From Actinomycetota bacterium (GTDB lineage: Bacteria > Actinomycetota > Actinomycetes > Nanopelagicales > Nanopelagicaceae): a DNA stretch of 51,750 bases. The first letter of the stretch is position 1. Every line of letters starts with the position of its first letter. A model generated the notes under the pieces. That model was not told the DNA's origin. It saw nothing but the letters and a program-made list of their open reading frames with translations, and did no database searches. The position numbers and the translations under genes are program-made. Where the stretch lies: positions 79,266 to 131,015 of the forward strand of contig CANFVU010000002.1 in the NCBI GenBank assembly GCA_947450545.1, given 5' to 3'. This document shows, one piece after another, positions 6,431-9,243 of the stretch.

Positions 6431-8284
6431 CTAGTCGTTTTTGAGGTCGCGTTCACCAAGACTGGCGAGATATCTGTTGTATTCCGCTAGCTCATCATCT
6501 TCGCCCATTGCATCGGCTCTCTGAGCAGCACGATCGATTCGCACCGCTTCACGTGAATCATCACGAACCCATTGAATAAAAGTTGCAATAAGCGCCAAGA
6601 GAATTGGAATTTCGCCCATGGCCCATCCGATAGAGCCTCCGAGATGTTGATCGACCAAGAGATCGGTATTCCACGTGCGATGAAGTGTCGCGAAATATCC
6701 TCCGTCGAGAAGTGTGGAAGTCGAGAGCAATGTAATCGAGAAGAATGCATGAATGCTCATCGCAGCAAAGAGCACGATGATTCGCACAATGTGGGGGACT
6801 TTCTTTGGATTGGGATCTACTCCGATGATCACGTGGAAGAAGAGATACCCAGAAAGGAGGAAGTGAATATCCATAATGAGATGGCCAGTATGGCTATGCA
6901 TCATCGCGCCAAATAACGGTGTCATGTACAAGAGAAAGAGTGAGCCATCAAAGATTGCAAGGACGACAATTGGATTAGTGTAAAAACCAAGGACCTTAGA
7001 ATGAATGAGTGAGATCAGCGATCCGCGAATGCCGCGCTCATCAGCATCCCGTCCAATAGGTAAAGTGCGAAGTGCAAGAGTCATTGGCGCGCTTAAAACA
7101 AATCCGATTGGTGCGATCATTCCAATAATCATGTGAGCAATCATGTGATAAGAAAATGCGTAGCTGGCATAAATGCCTATGCCACCGCTCGTTGCATAAT
7201 CAGCAAAACCAACGCCGCAGAAAAATGCAATGGTGCGCCCGATAGGCCACTTATCCCCGCGCTTAGAAAGCACAACAACTCCGCGAATATAGAGAGCACT
7301 TGCAAGGATGAGTATCCCTAGAAAGAGAGCATCCGGTGAGTAATACCAAATGAGACGACTGAGATTAGGTGCTGGCGGAATCGATGCTGAACTTGGATGC
7401 TCTGGTGGATTCAGCGTGGAAAGCCAACCTCCGACTGCAATGGTCGCGACCATAACAACGAGTTCCATCCCCAGCAGAGAGAACGTGTCGTTTGGTTTCT
7501 TAAGAAGAATAAATTTTCGGTGTTTAGCCCCAAAAGCAATGAGCAATCCGGTCAACACAATTTTTAATAGAACTAGTGATGCATAAGAAGAGTTCCATGC
7601 GGAGAGAAAGTTGAGTCGGCTATATGCGTTTGCTGCTCCGCTGAGAGAGACGATAATCGCTGCCCACAGCGCAAAAGCACTAAAACGCGAGAGTGATGCA
7701 GTGCGCTCTTCGGGAGAGATTACGATCAACCCTAAAACTCCACCCACCCACAGAGTGATGAATATGACGTGAAAAACTAAAGAGCCAATAGCTAACGTGT
7801 GATTGCTCAGTCCACTTGAGTGACTTTGAAAAATTGGAAGTATGGTCGCGAGAAGAGTTAAACCTAAAGACCAGTAAATACTTCCCACTTTACGTGCTTT
7901 GCTGAGAACCAAAATTGCCACAAGAGCGAAAATTAATTGAGCCAGATATGTGCGACCAATGATGGTCTGCTGAAGAAAAGATCGCAGAACAGTTGAATTA
8001 AATGAACTGAGCAAGCTTTCATTGAGGATATCTGCAAGCTCGACGAAAATTGATCCCACAAGAGTTGCAATCCAAACAAGTGCCGAAAGTTGGGCAAGTT
8101 TGCGAACTCTCATCGCTTCGGCTTGCAAGAAGCCCTTTTTCTCGTGAATAAAGAAAGCAATCGCTAAGAGAAGCCCGATTGTTGCAGTGGATGCAATTAA
8201 AGAGAGATCTTTAACGACAGGTGAAAGAATCGAAACCAGGGTATTCGAGCTGATATGTCCGTGCGTGATGACTCCGTAGCGCAA
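6431..8284 (-). CDS. CopD-CtaG fusion, copper membrane protein / cytochrome oxidase assembly factor
   Basis: A 617-residue polytopic membrane protein with two modules. Residues about 15-300 resemble CopD (copper uptake/resistance), with a VFHVIFITLWVGG segment holding a membrane His. Residues about 315-580 resemble caa3-type CtaG, with HMIAHMIIGMIAPIGFVLSA and MHSHTGHLIMDIHFLL, His-rich segments expected to handle copper for cytochrome oxidase. The C-terminal ~40 residues are charged and cytoplasmic. This fusion is known in actinobacteria. The start is TTG 8284: GAAGGA lies 7 nt upstream inside the end of copC, which stops only 3 nt before it, and no ATG is nearby. With CopC it likely moves copper to the oxidase (inference). 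Confidence 0.88.
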   Translation of the reverse strand: MRYGVITHGHISSNTLVSILSPVVKDLSLIASTATIGLLLAIAFFIHEKKGFLQAEAMRVRKLAQLSALVWIATLVGSIFVELADILNESLLSSFNSTVLRSFLQQTIIGRTYLAQLIFALVAILVLSKARKVGSIYWSLGLTLLATILPIFQSHSSGLSNHTLAIGSLVFHVIFITLWVGGVLGLIVISPEERTASLSRFSAFALWAAIIVSLSGAANAYSRLNFLSAWNSSYASLVLLKIVLTGLLIAFGAKHRKFILLKKPNDTFSLLGMELVVMVATIAVGGWLSTLNPPEHPSSASIPPAPNLSRLIWYYSPDALFLGILILASALYIRGVVVLSKRGDKWPIGRTIAFFCGVGFADYATSGGIGIYASYAFSYHMIAHMIIGMIAPIGFVLSAPMTLALRTLPIGRDADERGIRGSLISLIHSKVLGFYTNPIVVLAIFDGSLFLLYMTPLFGAMMHSHTGHLIMDIHFLLSGYLFFHVIIGVDPNPKKVPHIVRIIVLFAAMSIHAFFSITLLSTSTLLDGGYFATLHRTWNTDLLVDQHLGGSIGWAMGEIPILLALIATFIQWVRDDSREAVRIDRAAQRADAMGEDDELAEYNRYLASLGERDLKND

Positions 8285-8287
8285 AGA

Positions 8288-8887
8288 TTATTCCTTCTGT
8301 TGCGACTTTTGTGAGCGAGCGCTCGGAGCTGTTCTCTTCTTCGTTGCTTTGCGCTTTCTCTTCTGAGTTTGGCGCCACAAGGTGCGTGCATACCAAAGTA
8401 AAAAGAGAAGCATTCCAACGCCGAGAAGGAAAATAACAATTACAAATATTGCTGCGCCATGTCCCGTGCTAGACCCTGTACTTGTTTTTGACAACGTTGG
8501 AGTCGGGGTTGGAGATGCTGATGACATATCTGCTGGAGCGTTATATAAAAATGTGTATGTGCCTTGAAGAGGTGGTTCACCAGCTGCAAGCAGTGTGTAT
8601 GTAACTGTGTAAACACCAGCTGCTGTAAGAGGTTTTAACCCGACAACAACGGATGCATCAGCAACTGTTACAGAGCCATCATCAACTGCAATTCCCTTTG
8701 GATCCACAACTGAAAGTTGATTGCCATCTGCTTGTAAGGGTGATGTGCCAACGACAGAAACAGCGTTAGGGGCAACTACGAGAACAGAGCCTGCGGCTGG
8801 AACTGTTGAGGTCAAGGTGTTGGCGTGCGCTGAAATGGGCAGGGCCATCAGCAGCAGTGACGCAGCTGTGATGAGGCCTCTTTTCAT
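8288..8887 (-). CDS. copC: CopC-domain copper-binding exported protein
   Basis: A 199-residue membrane-anchored exported protein. Residues 1-22 (MKRGLITAASLLLMALPISA then HA) are a signal peptide; the mature N-terminus begins HANTLTSTVPAAGSVL, where the His at the cleavage point is the usual first copper ligand. The CopC beta-sandwich spans about 23-118, followed by a Ser/Pro/Thr linker, a membrane helix at about 145-165 and a very basic cytoplasmic tail. It lies 3 nt before the CopD-CtaG gene in one operon. Start ATG 8887 has TATTGT exactly 6 nt upstream. Periplasm-like copper delivery or binding is the likely job. Confidence 0.88.
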   Translation of the reverse strand: MKRGLITAASLLLMALPISAHANTLTSTVPAAGSVLVVAPNAVSVVGTSPLQADGNQLSVVDPKGIAVDDGSVTVADASVVVGLKPLTAAGVYTVTYTLLAAGEPPLQGTYTFLYNAPADMSSASPTPTPTLSKTSTGSSTGHGAAIFVIVIFLLGVGMLLFLLWYARTLWRQTQKRKRKATKKRTAPSARSQKSQQKE

Positions 8888-8892
8888 ACCTT

Positions 8893-8899
8893 TACAATA
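8893..8899. promoter_or_regulatory. Symmetric bidirectional -10 element, copC/fmdB
   Basis: TACAATA reads TACAAT (8893-8898) toward fmdB and TATTGT (8899-8894) toward copC. In both directions exactly 6 nt separate the hexamer from ATG (8905 and 8887). The two start codons are only 17 bp apart, so this element is the only room for both promoters. Confidence 0.7.
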
Positions 8900-8904
8900 C
8901 GCCT

Positions 8905-9108
8905 ATGCCTACGTATCAATATGCCTGCAGCCCTTGTGGCCACGAGTTTGAACTGGTTCAGTCATTCTCGGATGAGGCGATCTCGGTCTGCCCTGAATGT
9001 GGCGGCGAGGTACGTAAGGTTTATGCAAATGTGGGCGTAGTTTTTAAAGGTTCTGGTTTTTACAAAACTGATTCACGACCAGCCTCGAGTAAGCCAGCTT
9101 CCGAGTAA
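8905..9108 (+). CDS. FmdB family zinc-ribbon protein
   Basis: A 67-residue cytoplasmic protein. Residues 1-40 form the FmdB/CxxC_CxxC regulatory-type ribbon: MPTYQYACSPCGHEFE, then VCPECGGEV, giving four Cys for one zinc. The tail (about 50-67) is polar and rich in Ser/Pro. FmdB was named from a putative regulator of formamidase, but the biochemical role of the family is not established. It is divergent from copC and its stop directly abuts the stop of the 44-residue gene on the other strand. Confidence 0.88.
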   Translation: MPTYQYACSPCGHEFELVQSFSDEAISVCPECGGEVRKVYANVGVVFKGSGFYKTDSRPASSKPASE

Positions 9109-9243
9109 TCACTCGTAATGCGGCGGGCGATCTCGCTTAATCTCATCATCGCGAGAATTATCAGATGCAATCTCTGATGGATCCTTCTGCTCTTCATCGG
9201 CAGTTTTTGCTGGGATCAATGGCTTAACTATCTTCTCGCTCAC
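9109..9243 (-). CDS. Small hypothetical protein, 44 residues
   Basis: A short charged protein starting at GTG 9243 (MSEKIVKPLIPAKTADEE) and ending KRDRPPHYE. It has no membrane segment or Cys and looks disordered. Three things argue that it is real: TAGGAT lies exactly 6 nt before the GTG, the same spacing seen at many genes here; the frame fills the whole gap between fmdB (stop adjacent, no gap) and the divergent MMPL gene; and a C-terminal RPPH motif is, to my recollection, common in small actinobacterial hypothetical proteins. Function unknown. Confidence 0.6.
   Translation of the reverse strand: MSEKIVKPLIPAKTADEEQKDPSEIASDNSRDDEIKRDRPPHYE

Follow-up and report, generated by a model that had tools for sequence, protein, structure and literature searches.

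A symmetric -10 element as the probable shared promoter of copC and fmdB, two predicted leaderless genes, and recurrence of the layout in a family of streamlined actinobacteria

How are two divergent genes expressed when only 17 bp separate their start codons? The copC/fmdB pair raises this question in a 51,750-nucleotide stretch of DNA, hereafter the window, from a genome of the Nanopelagicaceae. On the minus strand, copC (8288..8887) encodes a 199-aa CopC-domain protein (PF04234; copper binding by family) with a signal-peptide-like N-terminus that begins MKRGLITAASLLLMALPISAHA. On the plus strand, fmdB (8905..9108) encodes a 67-aa FmdB-family zinc ribbon protein (PF09723, TIGR02605) that begins MPTYQYAC. 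Both start codons are well supported because of the signal-peptide-like start of CopC and because FmdB matches both PF09723 and TIGR02605 from residue 1. A copD/ctaG fusion (6431..8284, minus strand; PF05425, PF09678) lies 3 bp downstream of copC, an order kept in the relatives that have copC, and the two genes are probably cotranscribed. At the other end of the pair, a small ORF on the minus strand (9109-9243, coding score 12.6) has a stop codon that directly adjoins the fmdB stop.

The gap itself (8888..8904, both strands) reads ACCTTTACAATACGCCT. It is flanked by the copC start codon, CAT on the plus strand (8885..8887), and the fmdB ATG (8905..8907, plus strand), whose A residues at 8887 and 8905 are the predicted +1 positions and lie 18 bp apart. 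Within the gap is the symmetric heptamer TACAATA (8893..8899), of the form TANNNTA, which is the proposed -10 core of both strands. Its plus-strand reading, TACAAT (8893..8898), is the proposed fmdB -10 and is followed by 6 nt (8899-8904) before the ATG; its minus-strand reading, TATTGT (8894..8899, read 8899-8894), is the proposed copC -10 and is likewise 6 nt (8893-8888) from an ATG. The sequence-only reading of this DNA had these letters and coordinates right. Base pairs 8894 and 8898 are common to the two opposed hexamers, with the -11A of one pairing with the -7T of the other. Each strand also carries a T at -18 (8887 on the plus strand, 8905 on the minus strand), and at fmdB this T is supplied, by complement, by the initiating A of copC. 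No SD at a usable distance from either start was seen when the gap letters were judged by eye, and no good -35 was seen by eye in either direction around the gap; the leaderless genes of this genome likewise have no clear -35.

That divergent transcription can start from a symmetric -10 is known in bacteria, as the sequence-only reading had stated: such promoters were reported by Warman, Grainger and colleagues (2021 Nature Microbiology, as cited in PMC12825309/PMC10268837), and the parts of PMC10268837 and PMC12825309 considered here describe a -10 common to both directions, transcription starts separated by 18 bp, -7 and -11 positions that coincide reciprocally and an initiating A that forms the -18T of the opposite direction. 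The shared pairs, the 18-bp predicted start spacing and the -18T are all present in the copC/fmdB gap.

Whether both genes could also be leaderless was considered against the rest of the genome. In a sample of 451,750 bp (20 stretches totalling 400 kb, plus the window; 433 ORF-based genes called), the offset of TANNNT before candidate starts was recorded. At 61 of the 374 ATG candidates the hexamer precedes the start by exactly 6 nt, as compared with a mean of 3.8 (range 1-9) over the other 38 ATG offsets (0-39, omitting 6 and 7). The same 6-nt spacing is found at 12 of 130 GTG candidates, and no TANNNT peak was seen for the 104 TTG candidates of the sample. Leaderless starts therefore appear to be routine in this genome, with the peak at the very spacing found on both sides of the gap. 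With TACAAT 6 nt from its ATG and no SD, fmdB has the sequence features of a leaderless gene. The copC side has the 6-nt spacing and no usable SD, but its hexamer fits poorly: in a profile built from 75 leaderless-type sites of this genome (TA(A/G)(A/G)CT-like, no clear -35), TACAAT ranks at the 16th percentile and TATTGT at the 1st, and a T at the third place occurs in only 6 of the 75 sites. That TATTGT is atypical for the genome is the main weakness of the copC side.

This low rank would be expected if fmdB alone used TACAAT leaderlessly, with copC transcribed from a promoter inside fmdB (antisense) or by read-through, as a leadered mRNA lacking an SD, and TATTGT a by-product of the fmdB -10. 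An A following TANNNT yields the symmetry for free, and such symmetry is common at fmdB (32/57 loci, see below), also where the favoured copC start is far away. We nevertheless consider this explanation unlikely, on the evidence from relatives and from the family given below. A single symmetric -10 giving rise to two leaderless mRNAs is, in our judgement, the probable and best explanation of the 17-bp gap. The sequence-only reading, which had one element serving two leaderless genes with starts 18 bp apart, is in this respect strengthened by the relatives; its assertion that the element "must" do so was too strong given a TATTGT that is weak for the genome.

Relatives commonly have the divergent copC/fmdB pair. 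Four loci (L002, L003, L019 and L025) are nearest to the window in CopC and CtaG identity; in them the copC ATG is 54, 50, 65 and 54 bp from fmdB, respectively, and is preceded by an SD-like AGGG, GAGGGG or GGAGG. The fmdB -10 of these loci (TACAAT) is 7 nt from the ATG, versus 6 nt in the window, a point against the shared -10, and their fmdB -35 region contains a block, GATTAG...ATC..CTCAC. The window has neither the block nor an SD leader, and the missing SD of its copC, unlike the four closest relatives, argues against a leadered copC mRNA. L002 and L025 also have an in-frame copC GTG at gap 18, and L003 has an in-frame ATG at gap 23. The longer gap and the conserved block of these relatives, together with the derivation of the window from one genome that is 88% complete, could mean that faulty assembly or binning produced the short gap, with some tens of bp collapsed or mis-joined and the true genome retaining the ancestral longer gap and SD leader. 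This is improbable, as both frames and both starts are intact, the signal-peptide-like start of copC is in frame at the junction, and a similar contraction is found in two other genomes (G048 and G055). Less probable still, to the point of being hardly credible, is a copC start at the internal ATG of codon 14 (MALPISAHA), on a leadered mRNA. The in-frame ATG is indeed there, which would widen the gap to 56 bp, but the signal peptide would be cut to about 9 residues, and the CopC proteins of L019 and L025 align from residue 1 and that of L003 from residue 2.

A broader comparison used 57 distinct loci (window included) with a divergent copC and a TANNNT 6 or 7 nt before fmdB. These were what remained of 135 loci once duplicates, loci with only one of the two genes and loci with no -10 at that spacing had been removed. 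The sequence-only reading had proposed comparing the gap between relatives and had named, as a finding that would go against it, loss of the symmetry in close relatives in which both genes are still expressed. TANNNTA is kept in 32 of the 57 loci, and the 25 non-symmetric loci still have both genes; in the four closest loci, and in another genus in 22 of its 25 loci, the favoured copC start is 50-85 bp away. By that standard these loci would, if both genes are expressed in them, count against the reading. CAC or CAT (GTG or ATG on the copC strand) stands where the window has its copC start, at 6 nt from the reverse -10, in 55 of the 57 loci (31/32 symmetric, 24/25 non-symmetric), so that a copC-strand mRNA starting there would open with GUG or AUG. 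This near-constant reverse codon argues against fmdB being the only user of the element. In the window, L443 and L444, three of the 55, the codon is the ATG of copC itself. In an earlier set of 69 loci (16 symmetric, 24 non-symmetric, 29 without a -10 at 6 or 7 nt), the median distance to codon 23 of copC was 136 bp for symmetric versus 182.5 bp for non-symmetric loci (p = 5e-6, a statistic that ignores phylogeny).

In several loci (L446, L447, L448, L453, L456 and others), a short frame (VRELHLI...) in the copC leader begins with the GTG at the reverse +1, in many cases reaching the copC ATG or overlapping with it, and could encode a leaderless leader peptide. The sequences do not, however, show a conserved leader peptide of the VRELHLI type. 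Many relatives in the window's genus have a stop at codon 4 (VRG*) with the underlying block still kept, and the wobble positions of the copC-leader block look no less conserved than the others; the conservation is therefore read as acting at the DNA level. The block, which resembles CGATTAGANNTAATCCTCTCAC, is partly dyad-symmetric, lies ∼40 to 19 bp before the fmdB ATG in most of L002-L030 and L445-L467, and may be a -35 box or a regulator site. It is absent from the window, L068/L462, L443 and L444, and altered in L445.

Upstream of fmdB, three loci from Nocardioides and Pimelobacter (L052, L083, L099) have CIRCE-like inverted repeats, TTGGCACTC...GAGTGCCAA. This suggests heat-shock control in these genera.

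The short gap seems to have arisen more than once. Genus g2 comprises 27 genomes, of which 25 have FmdB, giving 25 loci. In 22 of these the favoured copC start is 60-85 bp from fmdB, often behind an SD-like leader, and three of the 22 (L450, L464, L465) also have an in-frame copC GTG at gap 18. Among the g2 genomes that depart from this arrangement, G048 and G055 (L443 and L444) have a gap of 18 bp, with TATCCT 6 nt before the copC ATG and TAGGAT 7 nt before the fmdB ATG (CAT TTCTT TAGGATA GTCCCC ATG and CAT TTCTT TAGGATA CTGCCC ATG). In G045 (L462, whose gap is the same as that of L068), copC could start at a GTG at gap 18, which is in frame and 7 nt from the reverse -10, or at an ATG at gap 27. 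That GTG alone is weak evidence because in-frame GTGs at gap 18 also occur in the long-leader loci L002, L025, L450, L464 and L465. The contracted forms have the copC ATG 6 nt (G048/G055), or an in-frame GTG 7 nt (G045), from the reverse -10, a placement not expected if only fmdB used the element. Neither these forms nor the window keep the block of the fmdB -35 region. The 17-bp copC/fmdB gap is known from a single MAG and the 18-bp form is common to G048 and G055 only. We infer that copC lost its SD leader at least three times: in the window, in G048/G055 and in G045. In the relatives, the reverse +1 of the fmdB promoter would already have coincided with a GTG or ATG of the copC strand, copC itself lying farther away behind its SD leader, and deletion of the leader together with the -35-region block would have placed copC's own start at that position on each occasion.

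To what extent the layout occurs at other gene pairs was addressed by searching 296 genomes of the family for CATN5TANNNTAN5ATG (gap 17) and for two control spacings made of the same letters (gaps 13 and 21). The bare pattern was not in excess within the genus (32 genomes; 8 sites versus 13 and 12 at the control spacings and 15 for the reversed pattern). Family-wide, 107 of the 296 genomes had a site at gap 17, 77 at gap 21 and 97 at gap 13; gene context, not the number of sites, made the difference, and these genome counts say little alone. A side was counted as a gene when the ORF starting there was 40 aa or longer and its coding score exceeded 5. All 75 gap-17 sites listed (to G210; the family has more than these) were examined, and the controls were taken from 75 listed sites each. 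Among the sites listed, genes began on both sides at 9 of 75 gap-17 sites (window included) and on one side at 52, compared with 1 and 8 of the 67 gap-21 sites examined and 0 and 33 of the 70 gap-13 sites examined. The excess of two-gene sites (9/75 vs 1/137 among those listed) is significant with the window (Fisher p = 4.4e-4) and without it (p = 1.1e-3), although species are related and the counts are not independent. Part of it stems from leaderless starts, which more often make one side a gene; conditional on at least one gene, the difference among the listed sites is modest (9/61 vs 1/42, p = 0.035). Four cases were doubtful by eye and counted anyway: L241, L250 and L417, where the second ORF is antisense-looking, and the control L291, whose start is probably further in. 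Omitting L241, L250 and L291 gives 7/75 vs 0/137 (p = 6e-4) and, given one gene, 7/61 vs 0/42 (p = 0.02) among the sites listed.

The 18-bp variant, CATN6TANNNTAN5ATG, had genes on both sides at 7 of the 30 loci retrieved (the doubtful L417 being one). For gaps 17 and 18 combined, with the gap-17 and control sites being those listed, the comparison is 16/105 vs 1/137 (p = 8e-6), 15/104 without the window (p = 2e-5), and 16/85 vs 1/42 given at least one gene (p = 0.007). Thirteen of 20 further gap-18 sites also had both genes; these were hand-picked, many for their recurrence between species, and stand outside the test. That two-gene sites are commoner at gaps 17 and 18 than at gaps 13 and 21, among the gap-17 and control sites listed, is a further point against the view that TATTGT is a by-product at copC. 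Because the conditional test is weaker and in-frame GTGs occur in uncontracted loci, our confidence in a shared -10 at copC/fmdB was lowered slightly.

One candidate for a conserved double case was rejected. The CATCACAGTAGGSTAGGC...ATG family (L157, L158, L161, L162 and many of L223-L265) has a coding-like ORF on one side only, with the exception of L250, whose second ORF is the antisense-looking one and which was kept in the count of nine. This sequence and close forms of it occur in ∼20 genomes of a single genus, where one flank has a gene that looks leaderless and the opposite flank lacks a convincing ORF.

The sequence-only reading had called the arrangement an extreme compaction. The layout is there, but copC/fmdB is not its only instance: it is found at further gene pairs of the family, some conserved between species, and once more at copC/fmdB itself, at gap 18, in another genus. 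Within the genome sample the window's pair stands apart, since by eye none of the other divergent pairs among the 71 called in 451,750 bp has a -10 common to both genes. Elsewhere in the family, the layout was found at nucleoside hydrolase/PfkB kinase (L370 scanned for families), PfkB kinase/mannose-6-phosphate-isomerase-like (L231, L263; L231 scanned, TIGR00218 below cut-off), GNAT/PF00144 serine hydrolase (L132), DinB-like/unassigned (L146), dehydratase/C-methyltransferase (L148), rmlA/rmlB-like (L159), glpK/glpD-like (L430, L475, L476; L475 scanned), MobA-like/unassigned (L469, L470, L479-L481; L470 scanned), birA/carboxyltransferase (L471, L472; L472 scanned), tsaC/SIMPL (L473, L474, L478; L474 scanned) and NTP transferase/CDP-alcohol phosphatidyltransferase (L439-L441, L488; L441 scanned) pairs.

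The clearest conservation was found for the nucleoside hydrolase/PfkB pair. Among 70 PfkB loci of genus g11, a nucleoside hydrolase is divergent in 47, at gap 18 in 40 and at gap 23 in 7; of the remaining loci, 2 have a gap of 17 and a different neighbour, and 21 of the 70, which were left aside, have no gap of 17, 18 or 23. TANNNTA occupies columns 7-13 in all 40 gap-18 loci. Across the 21 distinct 18-bp gap sequences, only columns 7, 8, 10, 11, 12 and 13 are invariant, and the chance that six invariant columns all fall within the heptamer is 3.8e-4 by a statistic that ignores relatedness. Gap and TANNNTA are thus kept while the spacers vary, as in a conserved double-leaderless pair. The gap-23 pairs (L362-L365, L367, L373, L377; for example GGAGTTAGCCTATTATCTATTTC) seemingly have two overlapping -10s and no shared heptamer.

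What can be seen directly at and around copC/fmdB is the geometry, the genome-wide leaderless signature, the missing SD, and the recurrence and conservation of the layout; the start sites, the two-way activity and the leaderless translation are inferred from these. The 17-bp gap would hold a bidirectional promoter of the sigma-70 type of which only the -10 core is left. TACAATA would be bound by RNA polymerase in either orientation, never in both simultaneously, with the -11A and -7T coming in each case from the same base pairs. Initiation 6 nt downstream would fall on the A of the ATG, so that the fmdB and copC(-copD/ctaG) mRNAs would begin at the start codon and be translated leaderlessly. 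On either strand, the base pairing with the initiating A of the other gene would serve as the promoter-stabilising -18T, and with starts 18 bp apart the ATG would serve as both start codon and promoter base.

Several known systems share parts of this scheme. The symmetric -10 bidirectional promoters, in the portions of PMC12825309 and PMC10268837 considered, have the same shared -10, 18-bp start spacing, reciprocal -7T/-11A and -18T; here, unlike there, the predicted start sites are the start codons and the core fills the gap, and the word "leaderless" is absent from the main text of both papers. Mycobacterial leaderless genes (PMC4633059, as far as considered) likewise have a -10 a few nt before an ATG or GTG and no SD, and any mRNA with a 5' AUG or GUG is described there as translated, but these are treated as single genes in the parts considered, whereas here there is a pair. 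Bidirectional promoters of Pyrococcus furiosus with a near-symmetric TATA box (PMC6640164, in part) also use one symmetric core for two directions. They differ in their TBP/TFB chemistry, in the 49 bp between the start sites of the case tested, in producing antisense RNA rather than a second gene, and in having 5' UTRs, unlike the mainly leaderless Haloferax. The bidirectional shared -10 promoter is therefore the known part, and both genes being leaderless from it would be the new part. Our literature search found no paper describing two leaderless genes that share a -10; most subscription journals lie outside such a search, and its result does not prove novelty.

The broader finding is the recurrence of the layout within the family and, judging from sequence, its conservation in at least one gene pair. 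The related actinobacteria with the recurring layout are probably freshwater organisms, and freshwater actinobacteria of the acI group exist in culture (PMC5301498 and PMC12381374, in the parts considered). We lean, by a small margin over doubt, towards a general view in which, in the streamlined actinobacteria of this family, a symmetric -10 heptamer with two leaderless mRNAs would be a recurrent and selected architecture of gene pairs (copC/fmdB, nucleoside hydrolase/PfkB, birA/carboxyltransferase, glpK/glpD, tsaC/SIMPL and others), whose start codons would contribute, through their A residues, both +1 and -18T. At fmdB, nearly all relatives examined would make a copC-strand mRNA that opens with GUG or AUG, so a leaderless leader peptide or an extended CopC would be ancestral, and leader deletion would repeatedly have turned that codon into the copC start.

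If this is true, one 7-bp element with two mutually exclusive directions takes up the whole intergenic space, and because the directions exclude each other, copC and fmdB expression would be physically tied. According to the parts of PMC12825309 considered, RNA polymerases cannot bind both ways at once, which had little effect at basal activity in the E. coli cases tested, and one direction, when strongly activated, can repress the other. Mutations in the -10 would hit both genes, and the start codons themselves would be promoter bases. The locus would then be a natural minimal bidirectional promoter, with leader deletion as a testable route to it in streamlined genomes.
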